Shown: piece by piece, positions 4,668 to 58,894 of the stretch | How positions within the stretch are numbered: position 1 is the first letter of the stretch | Layout: each line of letters starts with the position of its first letter | Assembly: GCA_016794925.1 (NCBI GenBank) | Contig: JAEUIW010000002.1 | Span: forward strand, 248,001 to 312,000 | Length of the DNA stretch: 64,000 nt | Direction: 5' to 3' | Source: Phycisphaerae bacterium | Lineage (GTDB): Bacteria > Planctomycetota > Phycisphaerae > Phycisphaerales > UBA1924 | The notes under the pieces: model-generated | The model's input: only the letters and a program-made list of their open reading frames with translations | Database searches by the model: none | Told to the model about the DNA's origin: nothing | Program-made: the position numbers and the translations under genes

Positions 4668-4702
4668 GCCATCAGATCGTCGTCAATCTCTCGCATGTTC
4701 GA

Positions 4703-4732
4703 GAGCCCGGGCGTTGGCCCGGGCTCTTTTTT
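4703..4732 (+). terminator. Intrinsic terminator after the prepilin pair
   Basis: A perfect 10-bp GC-rich stem (4703-4712 with 4717-4726) with a GTTG loop is followed by six T residues (4727-4732). It lies just past the stop of the second prepilin-like gene and just before the 3' end of the convergent recJ. Confidence 0.9.
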
Positions 4733-4772
4733 CATCAGGTGGATCCCCGCCGCGGCCAAGCCTGGCTGGGTA

Positions 4773-6521
4773 TCACGCCGGCCCGGCATCGACCAGTTCG
4801 ACATGGACGCTTGCGCGGCCACCCCAGGTGGAGATCTTGGGCCCGACGACAAGGTCCATGCGGGCGCCGGCGTGCAGCTCCTCGCGGCGCGGGGCCCAGT
4901 TCCACGCCACCACCCGGACGGTGCTCTGTCCCTGTCGGGCGAAAAATGACAGGTGGGCGCCGGTCGCGCCCAACGCCCGAGGCGGCCCTTGAACCGCCAC
5001 GCCGCGAAGGAGGGTGCGAATCTCTGGGTTGCCTCGGCCGCAGGGCTCCATGCGCTGCAGGTCCCGGAGGCTGTCGATGGAGAGCTCGTCGAGGTTCGCT
5101 TCGCAATCCACGACCACCTCGGGCGTGAGCTGATCAACGCTGAGCCGGGCGGTGGCGTCGGCTGTGAACGCCTCGGCGAAGGCGTCAAGTCGGTCGGCGC
5201 GGAGAGCGAGACCGGCGGCCATGTCGTGCCCGCCGAAGCGATCGAGGTACTCCGATGCTCGCTCCAGCGCGGCGTGAAGATTGAATCCCTCGATTGAACG
5301 CCCGGATCCGTGGCAGACGGAACCCGTCCGTTGAAGCAGGATGGTCGGTCTGTGGTACCGCTCCACCAGGCGGGAGCAGACGATCCCGATCACACCGGCG
5401 TGCCAGTCGGAGTGGGCCAGGACGATGGCGCGGCGGTCGTCCGCGGTCATTCCGGCGCGCCGGGCCTGCTCATCCGCCTGCTCCGTGATCCGTGACTCGA
5501 CGCCGCGTCGGTCGTTGTTCAGACGGGTCAGTTCCTCGGCGATCACGCGGGCCCGATCCCCGGTGGCCACGGTCAGGAGTTCGACGGCCTCGCGCGCGTG
5601 GCCGAGGCGGCCGCAAGCGTTCAGACGCGGGGCGAGGCGGAATCCGACGTCCCATGTGCCGACTTTCTCACCGGCCAGCCCCGAAGCCTCGATGAGCGCC
5701 CGCAGACCCTCGATGGGTGTGTGGCGGAGGCGTTCGAGGCCGAACCGCGCGAGAACGCGATTCTCGCCGACCAACGGGACCACATCCGCGATGGCACCCA
5801 ATGCCGCGGGGGCGAGCATCTCGATGAGACAGGTTCTCAATTCCGCACGGACCCGCTGTCCGCCGGCATCGAGCGTCGCCAACCGCCAGGCAAGTTTGTA
5901 CGCGACTCCGGCGCCGGAGAGGTCTGGGAACGGGTATGCCGAGTCGTGCCGACGAGGATGGACCACGGCGAACGCTGGGGGAAGGTCCAACGCGGAACCA
6001 GGCGGATTGTGGTGGTCGGTGATGATGAGATCGAGGCCGAGCTCGCGGGCACGGCGGGCGGGCTCGTGCGCGGTGACGCCGCAGTCCACCGAGACCACGA
6101 GACCGCGCTCGCCGGACGCGCGGAGTTCCTCGGCAATGGACTCGATTGCCGTGGTGTTGAGGCCGTACCCCTCTTCGAGGCGGTGCGGCACATAGGATCG
6201 GACGTCGGCGTCGGGCGCGATGGCGCGGAGCACATGGTAGAGAATGGCGGTCGCCGTGATGCCATCGACGTCGTAGTCACCGTAAATCACGATTCGCTCG
6301 CCGGATCGGGCGGCGTGGAAAATCCGCTCCGCGGCACGATCGAGGTCCGGAATCAGCGACGGGTCGTGGAGCTGCGTCAGGCGCGGATCAAGAAATACGC
6401 TCGCGTCGATCGGGTCGCCTAGACCACGGGCGGCGAGCACCCGTTCGAGGAGCGAGGACGACCCTTTGACGCCGGAATCTTGCCCGCCGCGCATCCGCCA
6501 ACGCTTGGTGAGGCCGCGCAT
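4773..6521 (-). CDS. recJ: Single-stranded-DNA-specific exonuclease RecJ
   Basis: Product of 582 residues with the complete RecJ plan. The DHH phosphoesterase motifs are DYDVDG (residues 82-87), SVDCG (about 144-148) and DHH (169-171). The DHHA1 domain follows, with the GxIGIVCSRLVER-like helix and the GGHDMAAG motif, then the C-terminal OB-type domain ending near IRTLLRG and beyond. RecJ degrades single-stranded DNA 5' to 3' in recombination and repair and needs divalent metal bound by the DHH Asp and His residues; all are present. It is transcribed alone, convergent with the prepilin pair and divergent from the adenosyltransferase gene. Length is normal for the family. Confidence 0.95.
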   Translation of the reverse strand: MRGLTKRWRMRGGQDSGVKGSSSLLERVLAARGLGDPIDASVFLDPRLTQLHDPSLIPDLDRAAERIFHAARSGERIVIYGDYDVDGITATAILYHVLRAIAPDADVRSYVPHRLEEGYGLNTTAIESIAEELRASGERGLVVSVDCGVTAHEPARRARELGLDLIITDHHNPPGSALDLPPAFAVVHPRRHDSAYPFPDLSGAGVAYKLAWRLATLDAGGQRVRAELRTCLIEMLAPAALGAIADVVPLVGENRVLARFGLERLRHTPIEGLRALIEASGLAGEKVGTWDVGFRLAPRLNACGRLGHAREAVELLTVATGDRARVIAEELTRLNNDRRGVESRITEQADEQARRAGMTADDRRAIVLAHSDWHAGVIGIVCSRLVERYHRPTILLQRTGSVCHGSGRSIEGFNLHAALERASEYLDRFGGHDMAAGLALRADRLDAFAEAFTADATARLSVDQLTPEVVVDCEANLDELSIDSLRDLQRMEPCGRGNPEIRTLLRGVAVQGPPRALGATGAHLSFFARQGQSTVRVVAWNWAPRREELHAGARMDLVVGPKISTWGGRASVHVELVDAGPA

Positions 6522-52884: not shown

Positions 52885-53703
52885 TTACTTCCGAACCGTT
52901 CGCTGCTCGATGCGCTTTTCGACTCGAGCGGGAACCACGCGGTCAATGTAGCTGCCCGGGGTGTGGACCTGGTCGGGGTCGAGCGCGCCGACGGGGACCA
53001 GGCGCTCGACTTCGGCGATCACGAACGCGGCGGCCTGGGCCATCATGGGATTGAAATTACGCGCGGTCTTGCGGTAGACGAGGTTGCCGAATTCGTCGGC
53101 CGTGTGGGCGTGGACCAGGGCGAGGTCGGCGTACAAGCCGGTCTCGAGGATGTACTCCCGGCGAGCCGGGGCCGAGGCGGCGCGGGGAGCGACTCTGGCC
53201 TTCATGTCCGTGAAAGTCCCGGTCACCGCCTCGGGCGAGCGGTTGTGATAACGCGTGTCCTCCGACGGAAGATGAAACTCACGGATCTCTTTGCCCGCGG
53301 CGACGGGGGAGCCCACGCCGGTGGCGGTGTAGAACGCGGGTATGCCGGCGCCGCCGGCGCGAATACGTTCGGCGAGCGTTCCCTGGGGATTGAACTCGAT
53401 CTTCAACTCTCCAGAGAGGAACTGTTTCTCGAAAATCGCGTTTTCGCCGACGTACGAGGAGATCATCTTGCCGATCTGGCGGGTCTGGAGCAGCAGACCC
53501 AGGCCGAAATCATCCACGCCGGCGTTGTTGGAGATGCAGGTGAGGTCACGGACTCCCGAATCGCGGAGGGCGATGATGAGGGTCTCGGGTATGCCGCAGA
53601 GCCCGAAGCCACCGACCATGACCGTCATCCCGTCACGCAGTACACCCGTGTCCTTGAGGTCGGCGAACGCGGCCGGGGCATCGCGGAAGGTTTTCGCGGG
53701 CAT
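52885..53703 (-). CDS. scoA: 3-oxoacid CoA-transferase subunit A with internal insertion
   Basis: Product of 272 residues from ATG 53703. Family motifs are VMVGGFGLCGIPETLI, CISNNAGVDDFGLG, SYVGENAIFEKQFLSGEL, EFNPQGTLAERIRAGGAGIPAF and GNLVYRKTARNFNP. Compared with the usual length of about 235, there is an additional Arg/Ala/Ser-rich stretch of about 38 residues after KEIREFH and before YILETGLYADLALV. The reading frame is continuous, so it is an insertion and not a frameshift. It would place a surface loop near the subunit interface. Confidence 0.92.
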   Translation of the reverse strand: MPAKTFRDAPAAFADLKDTGVLRDGMTVMVGGFGLCGIPETLIIALRDSGVRDLTCISNNAGVDDFGLGLLLQTRQIGKMISSYVGENAIFEKQFLSGELKIEFNPQGTLAERIRAGGAGIPAFYTATGVGSPVAAGKEIREFHLPSEDTRYHNRSPEAVTGTFTDMKARVAPRAASAPARREYILETGLYADLALVHAHTADEFGNLVYRKTARNFNPMMAQAAAFVIAEVERLVPVGALDPDQVHTPGSYIDRVVPARVEKRIEQRTVRK

Positions 53704-53811
53704 GACGGATTCCGGGAGGGGAGTGAGCGTGTGCGGAGCCGGGATTCGGCCTCCAGAGGATAGGAAGCCACAGGGCCGATCGAGGCGGCGGCCCCGCGCG
53801 ATTGATTCCAA

Positions 53812-54300
53812 TCAGAAGAGTGATTGCTGGTCCTTGACGTTCTTGGGGCGCGAGGTGAGCGCGTGCAGCTCGCTGAGGAGTTCATCCTTGGACTGGAATC
53901 GGTGATGTTCGGATGCGAACCGGATATACGCAACCTCATCGATGTCACGGAGGCGGAGACAGACCAGAGCCCCGATGACGGAGGAGGGCACCTCGCGCTC
54001 GTACTCGCGGGCGACCTGCTCCTCGATCTCGTCGACGAGGCGGGTCTTGACATCCTGGGGGATGGGGCGTTTGCCGCACGCGACCATCACGCCACGCAGG
54101 ATGTTGTCGCGGTTGAAAGGCACGCGGGCGCCATCGCGCTTGACCACCATGAGCCGGGGCAGTTCGTCCACGCGCTCGTACGTTGTGAAGCGTTTACGGC
54201 ATGAGAGGCATTCGCGGCGACGGCGAATGACCCGGCCGCCCTCGGACGAGCGTGAGTCGATCACCTTATCATCGTTGGACTGGCAGAAGGGGCAGATCAC
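53812..54300 (-). CDS. nrdR: Transcriptional repressor NrdR
   Basis: Product of 162 residues if it starts at GTG 54300, which gives the canonical V-I-C-P-F-C beginning. An upstream ATG at 54366 would add 22 residues without family support. The zinc ribbon has CPFC and CLSCRKRFTTYER. The ATP-cone domain has LPRLMVVKRDGARVPFNRDNILRGV and IEEQVAREYEREVPSSVIGALV. NrdR binds NrdR boxes before ribonucleotide reductase genes and responds to ATP/dATP levels. No nrd gene is in the window. The C-terminus ends in a helix and a polar tail. Confidence 0.93.
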   Translation of the reverse strand: MICPFCQSNDDKVIDSRSSEGGRVIRRRRECLSCRKRFTTYERVDELPRLMVVKRDGARVPFNRDNILRGVMVACGKRPIPQDVKTRLVDEIEEQVAREYEREVPSSVIGALVCLRLRDIDEVAYIRFASEHHRFQSKDELLSELHALTSRPKNVKDQQSLF

Positions 54301-54384
54301 GACCAGAGAATGTACGTCCCTCGGCCTTGGGGGGCGAGCCCCCGTTACACGAACGGACTCGACCATCCGTGCGCGGAGGTCGGT

Positions 54385-55977
54385 CTATCGGGCGCCCGCC
54401 AACGTGGGAGCGGGACGGTCGATGAGTTCGATGATCTTGCCGACCGCGTCAACCTGATCGGACGTGGACCCGAAAATGACGCTGTTGGTCGACGTCTCGA
54501 TCGCGATTGAACGTGGCGTGGGACAGTTTGCCAGATAGGGCGAAGTTCCGAAGATCGCGTTCAGCAACGCGGCGGTCCTGGTCGCGTCGATATGGGACAG
54601 CGGGAACGAGCGCGTGTCACCCGAGGCGTGCGTGGTCTTGGGAACAGGGCGATCCAGGATCGCGACCAGATCGGAAACGGTTCGAACCTGCGATTCGGTG
54701 GCGGAGAATTCCAGTCTCTCCGAGGTGCCGGCCGTGATCACCAATCCCCTGGGCACAGGGCAAGACTGCAGGGCGGGCGAGAGTTCGAAGATCGCTCCGA
54801 GGATTTCCCGGAGGTCCTTGGCCTTCATGGAATCGAGTTCGAATGCCCGCGAGGCCGGCGCGGCCGAACCGAGAGCGGATGCACCCGAGGAATCGAGCAC
54901 GGTCAGCCGCGGCACAAGCTTGAATTCGACCGCGACGCCTTGCCCGTCCGAGGCGCGGCTTTGAGGGACGGCGGGGCGAGCCGCGACCTCGTCCAGCACC
55001 CACTGGATCTGCGGCTGAACGCGCTGGGGGGCGCGCACAAAGAGCTTGGCACCGAAGAACGTGACGACGCCCCGATCCCCGCCCCGTTCGGCCCAAATGG
55101 TCGGGTGGACGAGCGAGGTAATCAAGGCCTGGATGGACTGCATGACTCGACGGACGCTGTCCTGACGCGGCGCCTGCTCGCCAAGGGTGGCGTTCACAAC
55201 GGTCGTCAGGTCAAACGTAACGAGGGTTGATTCCTGCCGGTCAAAGTAGGAGCTTGATGCAAAGACAAGCGTGCCGTTCTGCACGCGGTAGTCGATGCGG
55301 TCGTCTTCCGTGAGGCTAAGCGCATCATTCAGGAACGCAATCGCGGCGTTGAGGGGCATCCCGGGCGCACGGAACTCGACGCCGGCGACCCCGTCCGGCC
55401 CGAGCTCTGCGCGAAGCGACTGGAGGTGGTTCCACAAAACCTGGACCGGCAGGGATGCGGCCTTGCCGGCCTGCGTGAACACCGATGACCAAGTCTGGTT
55501 CGCATCGATGATCACGGGCTTCTCGTCCGCGGCATGCGCCGCGGCTGGGGGCTGGAAGACTGATACTCCTTCGACGGTGCTCTCGCGCGGCTGTCGCACG
55601 AGTCCCGTCACGGCAAACGAGAGGCCCACGGACGCAACGAGAATCATGCCGATATTCACGAGTCTTCTCCTACGAGGGGCGGCAAGGGCCGCTCCCAGGC
55701 GTGCGGCGAGCAGAGCGGGATCGCCCAGCTCGATCGCCGCGAGCTTCGCGGCTTCGGGTTCCGACATGCCGGCGACCATCAGGTCGCGGGTTCGATCGGT
55801 GAGGTGAGCTTCGATCTCGGCGAGCAGTTCCTTACGGCGTGTGGCGCCGACGCGAAGGTGCGTGGAGAGGCGGTCAACGAACACTCGGTGGTCCTCGGGA
55901 CTGCGCTCGGCGGACATACTGAGGTCCCTGGGCAGCGAAGAAGGTGCGCCGGTGCGGACCAGCTTGAGGGCGCTCAT
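54385..55977 (-). CDS. PadR-linked membrane protein: HAAS-like domain, TM helix, secretin-like repeats
   Basis: Product of 530 residues. Residues 33-97 form a helical domain (HLRVGATRRKELLAEIEAHL; GMSEPEAAKLAAIELGDPALL) resembling the HAAS/DUF1700-type domain that often accompanies PadR regulators. A membrane helix is at 106-126. The external part has an STN-like region (about 154-240), a planctomycete-type segment with TSLVHPTIWAERGG (about 250-330), and two tandem secretin/NolW-like repeats (379-445 and 456-525). Each repeat carries a C-P-x-P-R motif (SCPVPR, NCPTPR) and ends LDRPVP or IDRPAP. Its ATG overlaps the padR stop by four bases. The fusion of this cytoplasmic domain with secretin-type repeats is unusual. 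Confidence 0.7.
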   Translation of the reverse strand: MSALKLVRTGAPSSLPRDLSMSAERSPEDHRVFVDRLSTHLRVGATRRKELLAEIEAHLTDRTRDLMVAGMSEPEAAKLAAIELGDPALLAARLGAALAAPRRRRLVNIGMILVASVGLSFAVTGLVRQPRESTVEGVSVFQPPAAAHAADEKPVIIDANQTWSSVFTQAGKAASLPVQVLWNHLQSLRAELGPDGVAGVEFRAPGMPLNAAIAFLNDALSLTEDDRIDYRVQNGTLVFASSSYFDRQESTLVTFDLTTVVNATLGEQAPRQDSVRRVMQSIQALITSLVHPTIWAERGGDRGVVTFFGAKLFVRAPQRVQPQIQWVLDEVAARPAVPQSRASDGQGVAVEFKLVPRLTVLDSSGASALGSAAPASRAFELDSMKAKDLREILGAIFELSPALQSCPVPRGLVITAGTSERLEFSATESQVRTVSDLVAILDRPVPKTTHASGDTRSFPLSHIDATRTAALLNAIFGTSPYLANCPTPRSIAIETSTNSVIFGSTSDQVDAVGKIIELIDRPAPTLAGAR

Positions 55978-56351
55978 CGCGGGGTCCTTTCGTCACCGAT
56001 CTTGCGACCCCCGATGAAGGCATCGATAACGCCGCGGAACGCCCGGTGCGACGCGACGCGCTGATCGAGCCTTCGGCGGCCCTTGCTCGTGAGTCGATAC
56101 CACTTACGCCGACGGCCCTCGGCATCGGGCGCAGCACGCTCGGACTTGATCTCTTCCCACGATGAGGCGATCAGGCCCTCGGCCTCCATGCCATTCAGCA
56201 GCGGGTAGAGCGAGCCCGGGGCCAGCTTGAGCGTTCCGCCGGAGCGGGCAGCGATTTCCTTTGAAATCGAATAGCCGTAGCCGGGGCCGTCGCCGAGCAG
56301 CGACAGCACCACGAGCTCTGCCGATTCACTCGCCCAGTCGAACATCGCCAT
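55974..56351 (-). CDS. PadR-family transcriptional regulator
   Basis: Product of 125 residues from ATG 56351, with AAGGAG 8 bases upstream. The winged helix is standard: ELVVLSLLGDGPGYGYSISKEI, then LAPGSLYPLLNGMEAEGLIASSW, RRRKWYRLTSKGRRRLDQ and a C-terminal helix for dimerisation. PadR proteins are usually autorepressors relieved by a ligand or by a membrane partner. The strong promoter immediately upstream contains dyad sequence in its spacer, which fits autoregulation. The gene is translationally coupled to the membrane protein downstream. Confidence 0.93.
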   Translation of the reverse strand: MAMFDWASESAELVVLSLLGDGPGYGYSISKEIAARSGGTLKLAPGSLYPLLNGMEAEGLIASSWEEIKSERAAPDAEGRRRKWYRLTSKGRRRLDQRVASHRAFRGVIDAFIGGRKIGDERTPR

Positions 56352-56377
56352 CCTCTGCTCCTTCCATGTCTCCGACC

Positions 56378-56406
56378 AATATATCGGATACAGATACGTC
56401 GGTCAA
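56378..56406 (-). promoter_or_regulatory. Strong promoter and putative operator of padR
   Basis: On the minus strand TTGACC (56406-56401), a 17-base spacer and TATATT (56383-56378) match consensus at five of six positions each. The spacer contains repeats of GTATC/GATAC and the perfect palindrome TATCGGATA (56382-56390). CCGAC and GTCGG flank the region (56372-56376, 56398-56402). PadR binding here would block polymerase. Confidence 0.75.
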
Positions 56407-56570
56407 GAGGTGGCGCGAGAACATCCGGATCGTTGTGCCGCCGCGTGCGGTCGGGCCCGAGGCGGGGGCGCTCGAAGCGCCGGCGTGGCGTCCGGCATCG
56501 CAACGGGCTATGCTCGTGGTTCACCATGGCCCACGCAGTGGACAGCACGACGACCCGAACCAATCGCCGC

Positions 56571-56638
56571 GGCTAGGCTGGAACCGCGAGCGAGTGACGG
56601 AACCTCACTGAGGCCCAGCCCCCAAACCGGCTGGGCCT
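56571..56638 (+). promoter_or_regulatory. Structured thrS leader with competing hairpins (T-box-like)
   Basis: A 10-bp hairpin AGGCCCAGCC/GGCTGGGCCT (56611-56620 with 56629-56638, eight-base loop) lies 30 bases before the thrS ATG. Its 5' arm can instead pair with GGCTAGGCT at 56571-56579, nine positions with one mismatch and one G-U pair. Between them lies TGGAACCGCG (56579-56588), which resembles the T-box bulge consensus, and an AGTGA/TCACT hairpin. The hairpin has a poor U-tract, so control of ribosome access is as likely as termination. No Stem I with a Thr specifier was identified with certainty. Confidence 0.4.
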
Positions 56639-56668
56639 GTCTGTTTCCAGAATCGAGAAGGAACTCCG

Positions 56669-58894
56669 ATGCCCGTCATCATCCTGCCCAATGGGGACAA
56701 GAAAGCGTTCGAATGGCCCCTGACCGCCGCGGAGGTCGCGGCGTCGATCGGTTCCGGTCTGGCCAAGGCCGCGCTGGGCGCCAAGATCGACTTCGGCGAG
56801 GGGCCGGAGCTGCGCGACCTGAGCACGCTGATCGACCGGGATGCTTCGATCGCGATCGTGACTGCGCCCAGGCATGGGCAGGCGGCGAGCGCGGATGCGC
56901 TGTTCTTGATGCGACATTCCGCCGCGCACGTGATGGCGGAGGCGATCCAGGACGTGGTGGGCAAAGACGTGCTGCTGGCCTACGGCCCACCGACGGAGAC
57001 GGGGTTCTTCTACGACATGTTCGTGCCGGAAGGGAAGAAAATTTCTTCAGATCACTTCGATGCGATCAACAAGAGGATAGCGGAGATCATCAAGGAGGAC
57101 AGGCCGTTTGCACGCTTCGAGCTGAAAGCCCGTCCAGCTATGAACAAGCTTGATGCCGAAGGAAACAAGTACAAGAAGGACAACGCGCTCCGAGCGCTGC
57201 AACTCCAAGTGCGTAGCTCGCCGAGCAGGGACACGTTCATTACTCTGTCGGACGGGACGCGTATTCCCATGCCCGAGGATGGCGTTCTTTCCTTCTATGC
57301 AACAGGAACCCCTGGCACCGACTGGGAGGACCTCTGCCGCGGACCGCACGTGCCATCCACCGGGCGCATCGGGGCGGCGCGTGTGATGTCCCTCGCCGCC
57401 TCTTACTGGCATGGTGATGAGAATTCCGACCGGCTGACCCGCGTATACGGCACCGCGTTCCCCACCCAGCAGGAGCTCGACGCGTACCTCAACCAACTCG
57501 AAGAGGCTAAGAAACGCGACCATCGTGTCATCGGCAAGAACCTCCGGCTGTTCCACATCGATGAGGACGTGGGGCAGGGGCTGATTCTCTGGACTCCTAA
57601 CGGCTCGGTGATCCGCAAAGAACTGCAGGTGTTCATCGCCGCGGAACTCAAGAAGCAGGGCTACACCGAGGTGTTCACGCCGCACATCGGGCGGCTGGAG
57701 CTCTACAAGACCAGCGGCCACTTCCCCTATTACAAGGATTCGCAGTTCGCGCCGATCATCGAACGGCAGGCGCTGGAAGAGCTGTGCAAGACAGGCTGCA
57801 GCTGCGCCGACATGCTCAACCGCGTGGAGGCGGTAAGCGAACGGCTCGCCAGCGGGATCAACGAACGCACCCGGGCCCAGACGATCACGCCCGACCGCGT
57901 CCGGCCGGACGATGAGCTCGTCGAGGGCTTCATGCTCAAGCCGATGAACTGCCCGCACCACGCGAAGATTTTCGCATCGGCCCCTCACTCCTACCGCGAT
58001 ATGCCGGTGCGGCTGGCGGAGTTCGGCACGGTGTACCGCTGGGAGCAGTCGGGCGAGCTCAACGGAATGACCCGCGTGCGCGGCTTCACCCAGGACGATG
58101 CGCACCTGTTCTGCACGGAAGATCAGATCCCCTCCGAGATTCAGGGGTGTCTCTCGCTTGTCAAGATCATCTTCGGCACGCTGGGGATGAAGGACTACCG
58201 GGTGCGGGTGGGTCTGCGCGACCCCGACAGCAACAAGTACACCGGCTCCGCGGAGAGTTGGGACAAGGCGGAGGCCGCGTGCCTGGCCGCAGCAGAGTCC
58301 TTGGGCGTGCCTTTCAGCCGGGAGCCCGGGGAGGCCGCCTTCTACGGACCGAAGGTCGATTTCGTTGTGAAGGACGTGATCGGACGCGAGTGGCAACTTG
58401 GAACGGTTCAGGTCGATTACAACATGGCGAACCGTTTCGATCTGTCGTACATCGGGCCGGACAATCGGGCCCACCGCCCGGTGGTGGTCCATCGGGCACC
58501 CTTCGGCAGCATGGAGCGGTTCTGCGGTGTCCTGATCGAGCATTTCGCCGGCGCCTTCCCCACCTGGCTGAGCCCTGAGCAGGTACGAGTGCTGCCCATC
58601 AGCGACAAGTCGCGGGGATATGCCGAGAAAGTCGAGCGGGCCCTGATGGACGCTGACGTGCGCGTGCGGGTGGACGGCTCGAACGAACGAATCCAAGCAA
58701 AGGTGAAGGTCGCGGCGGACGAGAAGGTCCCGTACATGCTGATCGTTGGTCCACGCGACGCGGAGAGCGCCGCGGTGAGCGTGCGCGTGCGCGGGATTGA
58801 GAAGGACCTGGGTTCGATGCCACTCGGCAGATTCGTTGATGGAGTCAGGGGAGAGATCACGGAACGGAGAGCCGAACTGAGCGTGAGACCCTGA
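56669..58894 (+). CDS. thrS: Threonyl-tRNA synthetase
   Basis: Product of 741 residues, about 100 longer than the enteric enzyme; ATG 56669 follows AAGGA. It has the N-terminal TGS domain (PVIILPNGDKKAFEWPLT), the editing-domain core (MRHSAAHVMAEAI; CRGPHVPSTGRI), and the class II catalytic core. That core has KTSGHFPYY, MLKPMNCPHHAKIF with the zinc-binding Cys, VRLAEFGTVYRWEQSGELNGMTRVRGFTQDDAH and the C-terminal anticodon-binding domain. About 50 additional residues (roughly 358-422) with the cluster CKTGCSC lie between KDSQF and the zinc motif. The enzyme charges tRNA-Thr and edits Ser-tRNA-Thr. Its leader looks regulated. Confidence 0.96.
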   Translation: MPVIILPNGDKKAFEWPLTAAEVAASIGSGLAKAALGAKIDFGEGPELRDLSTLIDRDASIAIVTAPRHGQAASADALFLMRHSAAHVMAEAIQDVVGKDVLLAYGPPTETGFFYDMFVPEGKKISSDHFDAINKRIAEIIKEDRPFARFELKARPAMNKLDAEGNKYKKDNALRALQLQVRSSPSRDTFITLSDGTRIPMPEDGVLSFYATGTPGTDWEDLCRGPHVPSTGRIGAARVMSLAASYWHGDENSDRLTRVYGTAFPTQQELDAYLNQLEEAKKRDHRVIGKNLRLFHIDEDVGQGLILWTPNGSVIRKELQVFIAAELKKQGYTEVFTPHIGRLELYKTSGHFPYYKDSQFAPIIERQALEELCKTGCSCADMLNRVEAVSERLASGINERTRAQTITPDRVRPDDELVEGFMLKPMNCPHHAKIFASAPHSYRDMPVRLAEFGTVYRWEQSGELNGMTRVRGFTQDDAHLFCTEDQIPSEIQGCLSLVKIIFGTLGMKDYRVRVGLRDPDSNKYTGSAESWDKAEAACLAAAESLGVPFSREPGEAAFYGPKVDFVVKDVIGREWQLGTVQVDYNMANRFDLSYIGPDNRAHRPVVVHRAPFGSMERFCGVLIEHFAGAFPTWLSPEQVRVLPISDKSRGYAEKVERALMDADVRVRVDGSNERIQAKVKVAADEKVPYMLIVGPRDAESAAVSVRVRGIEKDLGSMPLGRFVDGVRGEITERRAELSVRP

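Follow-up and report, generated by a model that had tools for sequence, protein, structure and literature searches.

By published definition, HAAS domains always accompany a stand-alone PadR regulator, and in 2024 it was suggested that the HAAS-PadR dyad could serve in place of two-component systems (PMC11237479). Sensor domains fused to HAAS were proposed to shift its conformation and thereby alter PadR, and the domain was described as having a conserved GxP motif in its third helix (PMC11237479). The published fusions carry multi-TM domains, PspC, LiaI-LiaF-TM, Toastrack, FtsX/MacB or FtsW/RodA; planctomycetes are not mentioned in the text of that survey, and secretins appear there solely in reference titles. 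In Listeria, the PadR-family regulator LltR is encoded beside a membrane protein with DUF1700, a member of the HAAS superfamily, and represses its own operon (PMC6624303). A related layout is found in PupR, a FecR-type regulator with the order ASD-TM-CJM-STN, which reads an outer-membrane transducer (PMC7186176). There are few HAAS-PadR cases in which the sensor, the regulator and the target promoter are all defined.

The pair described here lies in the window, the whole 64,000-nt stretch of DNA that was analysed, and both of its genes are on the minus strand. The first, padR (55974..56351), encodes a short winged-helix repressor of the PadR family (125 aa; PF03551, 73.6 bits, cut-off 27). The second (54385..55977) encodes a 530-aa membrane protein, hereafter the partner, with the order HAAS, TM helix, N0/N1-type module and two Secretin_N repeats. 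Both open reading frames were found where the earlier note had placed them, and the four-base overlap it had described is an ATGA (55974..55977, minus strand, read from the sequence) that joins the padR stop to the partner start. As in the HAAS-PadR dyad, including LltR/lmo0600, a stand-alone PadR-like wHTH gene (the PF03551 match) adjoins the gene of a membrane protein that begins with a HAAS domain. The locus also resembles PadR genes linked to permease-prefix proteins (padR_acidobact, perm_prefix_1): the prefix domain is the same and the PadR subgroup is related (75.5 bits to NCBIfam padR_acidobact, below its cut-off of 101.8), but no permease is present here. The partner differs from the published HAAS fusions in having one TM helix followed by a secretin-type periplasmic part. 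The dyad itself is already known, and this periplasmic part is a new variation on it; no published report of a HAAS-secretin fusion or of planctomycete HAAS/PadR was found in the open-licence literature. We interpret the pair, with a probability of roughly 0.6, as a self-contained, autoregulated PadR-HAAS signalling unit in which the partner reports the state of the envelope through its secretin-type periplasmic domains.

The N-terminal part of the partner is a HAAS, or permease-prefix, helical domain at residues 30-99 (55681..55890, minus strand). It matched NCBIfam perm_prefix_1 at 46.1 bits (cut-off 30), in agreement with the earlier description of a helical domain of the kind that accompanies PadR, and was the only perm_prefix_1 domain in the window's own genome. 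The Pfam HAAS profile scored 24.3 bits, just below its cut-off of 27, and exceeded the cut-off in the relatives at loci L008, L094 and L098. In the AlphaFold model the HAAS helices span residues 30-40, 45-68, 73-84 and 87-99. The GxP motif corresponds to G85-D86-P87, of which the glycine is kept across 23 relatives and the proline is not. No solved HAAS structure was among the fold matches listed with the whole-protein model as query. The model of the whole partner, with a mean pLDDT of 68, comprises the HAAS helices, the TM helix and four small alpha/beta domains.

The TM helix was placed by the model, with low pLDDT there, at residues 103-124 (55606..55671, minus strand), just after an RRRR stretch. 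The earlier claim of one TM helix agrees with a single hydrophobic segment at about residues 105-127 (hydropathy peak 2.2 at 109-127). This sole hydrophobic segment follows the HAAS domain, and the protein has no N-terminal signal peptide. The HAAS domain is predicted to lie in the cytoplasm, with the helix running N-in, C-out.

Beyond the membrane segment, two domains form an N0/N1-type module. The N0/STN-like domain (residues 154-250; 55228..55518, minus strand) showed fold matches to the STN of a FecR-type anti-sigma regulator (4m0n) and to PilQ N0. Residues 154-243 gave middling Z-scores of 7.2-7.3 against the anti-sigma STN structures 4m0n and 4m0h (4m0n: 2.7 Å over 74 residues). The N1-like domain (residues 250-333; 54979..55230, minus strand) matched a GspD N-domain (Z 7.3, 2.0 Å, 61 residues) and contains the conserved positions W295, G299-G300 and A316-P317-x-R319. 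Residues 146-338 modelled alone reached a pLDDT of 89.9. The best score for the module as a whole, Z 7.4 against 3gr5, is also middling and spans both domains with a large rmsd. These scores gain weight because a profile of the core module matched residues of about 615-810, ahead of the barrel, in a secretin of 1180 aa encoded in the same genome (E 7.2e-17). Searched against the PDB by sequence, neither the core profile nor the whole partner gave a meaningful match; the structural matches came from fold comparison. The STN-like region named in the earlier note thus stands on fold comparison and has no Pfam match.

The C-terminal part carries two Secretin_N stretches (Pfam PF03958, 45.3 bits, cut-off 28.2). 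The first repeat covers residues 374-443 (54649..54858, minus strand), where residues 373-443 matched the fold of XcpQ 5ngi with Z 8.6 and 1.8 Å. The second covers residues 453-523 (54409..54621, minus strand; best PF03958 stretch 455-524) and matched XcpQ 5wln, which aligned to residues 449-523 with Z 9.4, 2.5 Å and 30% identity over 69 residues (VIA-align). Foldseek on the whole-partner model also placed secretins at the top (best E 9.5e-7). The two repeats aligned to each other with a score of 126, compared with at most 44 in 500 shuffles. The two secretin-like repeats proposed earlier were therefore borne out by both Pfam stretches and by GspD/XcpQ N-domain folds, and a search for a secretin-type fold at the C-terminal end, by which that proposal could have failed, returned matches over residues 374-523. 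The paired C-P-x-P-R motifs are present at residues 406 and 485, but they belong to the window protein only: as a family motif the pair was rejected, since no tail region of a relative retains more than one Cys-x3-Arg.

The partner shares N0-, N1- and Secretin_N-type periplasmic domains with secretins such as GspD/XcpQ, PilQ and MshL; in contrast to them, it has no PF00263 barrel (no Pfam match up to E 10), and a cytoplasmic domain precedes its inner-membrane anchor. It belongs with the HAAS membrane proteins, carrying secretin-type periplasmic domains, and is not a secretin. With FecR/PupR (PMC7186176) it has in common a cytoplasmic regulatory domain, a single TM helix, a periplasmic part with a candidate STN domain in the corresponding place, and membership of a small transcription-controlling regulator pair. 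However, HAAS stands where those regulators have an anti-sigma domain, and PadR replaces the ECF sigma factor. No FecR or anti-sigma domain match was found in the partner with Pfam or NCBIfam, and the paired gene is a PadR by Pfam, not an ECF sigma factor. The N0 domain is followed by N1, not by an all-beta juxta-membrane subdomain, and Secretin_N repeats are added. The HAAS-TM-secretin-domain architecture put forward in the earlier note is thus supported by profile matches together with predicted folds.

A contig search with the single window protein as query found no relatives. Many partner relatives were present among 120 genomes of the same family, and the named matches are Phycisphaerales MAGs. 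We compared 40 distinct loci, of which 39 were readable upstream of the partner. In all 39, padR lay directly upstream, and in 38 the two genes overlapped by 4 bp (ATGA, GTGA or TTGA). A phylum-wide sample of 392 genomes gave three strong matches outside Phycisphaerales (L113-L115), with padR adjoining each. The pair is conserved in Phycisphaerales, with rare members elsewhere in Planctomycetota. The coupling of the partner to PadR therefore extends far outside the window's genome, and the two-gene arrangement, whose absence from related genomes would have counted against the earlier proposal, is conserved. The HAAS domain, the TM helix and the N0/N1-type module were common to all loci compared, with HAAS among the best conserved parts. 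Invariant partner positions include E54, H58, R62, G85, D246, W295 and R319. For deriving patterns, a 23-row alignment was too diverse, and six closer rows were used instead.

What appears to be a second STN/N1-type unit, together with a Secretin_N match below threshold, is present in the PadR-linked HAAS protein of L113 (2608..4605, plus strand; 665 aa), from outside the order. The partner at L041 (4668..6240) occupies two frames (4668..5555 and 5251..6240), owing to a frameshift or a sequencing error.

One or two Secretin_N repeats were found in the tails of 13 of the 40 loci. Other tails consist of coiled coils, Pro/Gly-rich stretches, an SLBB domain or almost nothing; the relative at L029 (1402..3123, plus strand), for example, ends in a coiled coil and an SLBB-like domain (21.8 bits, below the cut-off of 27). 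The Secretin_N repeats are one of several interchangeable tails on a constant HAAS-TM-N0/N1 core. On the core tree no fewer than four changes in the Secretin_N state are required, of which strongly supported branches force only two. A single origin of the tail was rejected on the count of at least four, and the tree suggests that repeated gain or loss is likely. Of the two functions offered in the earlier note, the envelope sensor is supported, while the trans-envelope scaffold is disfavoured because many relatives have no Secretin_N repeats. The sensory part does consist of secretin-type domains, but what is conserved is the N0/N1-type module (residues 154-333) rather than the two repeats.

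Upstream of padR, a sigma-70-like promoter, TTGACC-17-TATATT (56378..56406, minus strand), was the only one in 53700..56720 (mean of 0.3 in shuffles). Its -35/-10 spacer is filled by a predicted PadR operator, GACGTATC-TGTATCC-GATATATT (56378..56400, minus strand). Across the family, the operator is a palindrome, GATATATC-N7-GATATATY, between TTGAC and TATATT upstream of padR, and the layout TTGAC - GATATATC - N7 - GATATATT, or a close variant, is near-universal among the loci. The predicted operator occurred with at most two mismatches in 38 of 45 loci, other half-site spacings occurred in at most three loci, and 2,250 shuffles never gave fewer than three mismatches. In the window, the left half-site has two mismatches.

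The window's own genome contains a single predicted operator even at three mismatches. The predicted operator was always at padR in the 20 scanned genomes that have the pair; two of them had one extra 2-mismatch site elsewhere, and one had two overlapping sites at padR. It was absent from seven genomes without the pair, and a reversed control pattern gave 0 sites in all genomes scanned (20 with and 7 without the pair). A wider PadR regulon was rejected, as no further site was present in the own genome at up to three mismatches. The palindrome is a candidate binding site at which PadR would act as a repressor; its conservation by itself points neither to a particular protein nor to repression. 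Since the operator is conserved and the own genome has it at padR only, PadR probably regulates just its own operon through this private predicted operator. The earlier statement that the partner is controlled by PadR thus holds for the pair's own operon and does not extend to a wider regulon. The earlier account of the locus had the pair right but missed the operator and promoter at 56378..56406, as well as the conserved neighbours nrdR and thrS.

The preferred reading of an autoregulated signalling unit joins these elements as follows. PadR would bind the single operator inside its own promoter and repress the padR-partner operon, possibly together with nrdR. Such autorepression was shown in Listeria (PMC6624303) and is only predicted for the window pair. 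The partner would sit in the inner membrane, where its cytoplasmic HAAS domain is expected to contact PadR, with the N0/N1 module and the two Secretin_N repeats facing the periplasm. If, in the periplasm, these domains bind a ligand or a partner, oligomerise or lose a partner, the HAAS-PadR contact may be altered and the promoter freed. More partner protein would be made, closing a loop in which the sensor is also the output. We infer the topology, the HAAS-PadR contact and the direction of the response. Within one order, the sensor core stays constant while the periplasmic tails are swapped, and there is one operator, sharply conserved, through which the circuit could readily be tested in a reporter strain.

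An alternative, which we regard as doubtful, is that the partner is itself the effector, serving a secretin of type II secretion or a type IV pilus as periplasmic scaffold or chaperone, and that PadR simply limits its dose. It would dock the secretin by its N0/N1 and Secretin_N domains, and HAAS would merely report the amount of partner. Secretin-type domains are oligomerisation and docking modules, several secretins are encoded in the own genome, among them one of 867 aa and a giant one, and the partner's own operon is the only predicted PadR target, as expected if its product is the output. The growth defect of an lltR mutant was likewise traced by deleting the other genes of the operon, whose regulated membrane/exo proteins were treated as effectors (PMC6624303). 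However, most relatives lack the Secretin_N tail and so present no constant effector surface beyond N0/N1, and the pair adjoins thrS and nrdR, not secretion genes.

A quite improbable alternative is that PadR answers a small cytoplasmic ligand and that the membrane protein is simply regulated, with no signalling back. PadR-family repressors such as LmrR and LftR do respond to small molecules. The near-invariant HAAS-PadR pairing, with its 4-bp overlap across the order, points instead to a direct partnership. The pairing is also general in the published survey (PMC11237479), and HAAS is among the best conserved parts of the partner.

Both neighbouring genes were named by eye from the sequence. 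Divergent thrS (56669..58894, plus strand) lies upstream, and at least 19 of 46 loci have its homologue next to the pair, a count limited by many short stretches. Downstream and co-directional lies nrdR (53812..54366, minus strand), with its first possible start 18 bp past the partner; 29 of 46 loci have an nrdR homologue adjoining the pair, and nrdR may be co-transcribed with padR and the partner as a third operon gene. The thrS/nrdR gene order is common to many relatives, so the locus has probably been vertically inherited. That nrdR is the real output, tying envelope state to ribonucleotide reductase control by co-transcription, would fit its same-strand position, the 18 bp gap and its recurrence, but is very unlikely, as no nrdR was present within the stretch read for 17 of 46 pairs (some stretches being short), gaps of roughly 50-220 bp in relatives fit a separate promoter, and the gene order may reflect an inherited neighbourhood.

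If the pair is an envelope-signalling unit, a cognate outer-membrane secretin is the leading, still tentative, guess for the sensed signal. In known machines, the secretin rings, secretin-type domains pair with one another, which makes a secretin a natural candidate. It is favoured by the relationship of the core module to the pre-barrel part of the 1180-aa secretin, a protein present in most genomes of the order, and by isolated secretin C-module signatures (e.g., VPMLGDLPILNNLF) in partner proteins, far above chance (8 of 41; 0.02 expected). These signatures occur at three different positions, with no barrel, and are absent from the window partner; the partners listed with one are L006, L007, L008, L010, L017, L031, L036, L041 and L099. 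The secretin as signal is weakened because no genomic link of the pair to secretion genes was found and there is no strict co-occurrence of Secretin_N tails with the giant secretin. A strict link of that kind was rejected, the giant also being present in genomes with a tailless pair or without the pair.

A more specific version, equally speculative, is that the partner is a secretin-assembly sensor whose N-module engages the N-domains of the 1180-aa secretin or of the 4333-aa giant, by docking or by co-assembly, and that PadR-HAAS turns mis-assembly into transcription. If true, this would be a non-PSP route for sensing secretin stress; a periplasmic part that reads a secretin would make the partner a dedicated Planctomycetota envelope sensor built of pore parts.

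The 1180-aa secretin is encoded in the own genome on contig C289 (L112, 804..4346, plus strand) and has a TPR-like N-terminal half. Many of the Phycisphaerales genomes searched have open frames of roughly 1100-1300 aa that give this core match. The giant secretin of 4333 aa is encoded on contig C322 of the same genome (L070, 3502..16503, minus strand). It has an N0-like beginning, some 46 Secretin_N repeats in tandem and, near its C-terminus, a complete GspD-type barrel, and no published description was found in the literature searched. Its repeats are the best relatives of the window repeats in the own genome, a comparison to which a best-of-46 bias applies. Were these repeats to stack as they do in GspD, the giant secretin would form an extremely long tube. 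Frames longer than 2,500 aa with a Secretin match were present in at least 61 of the 120 family genomes.
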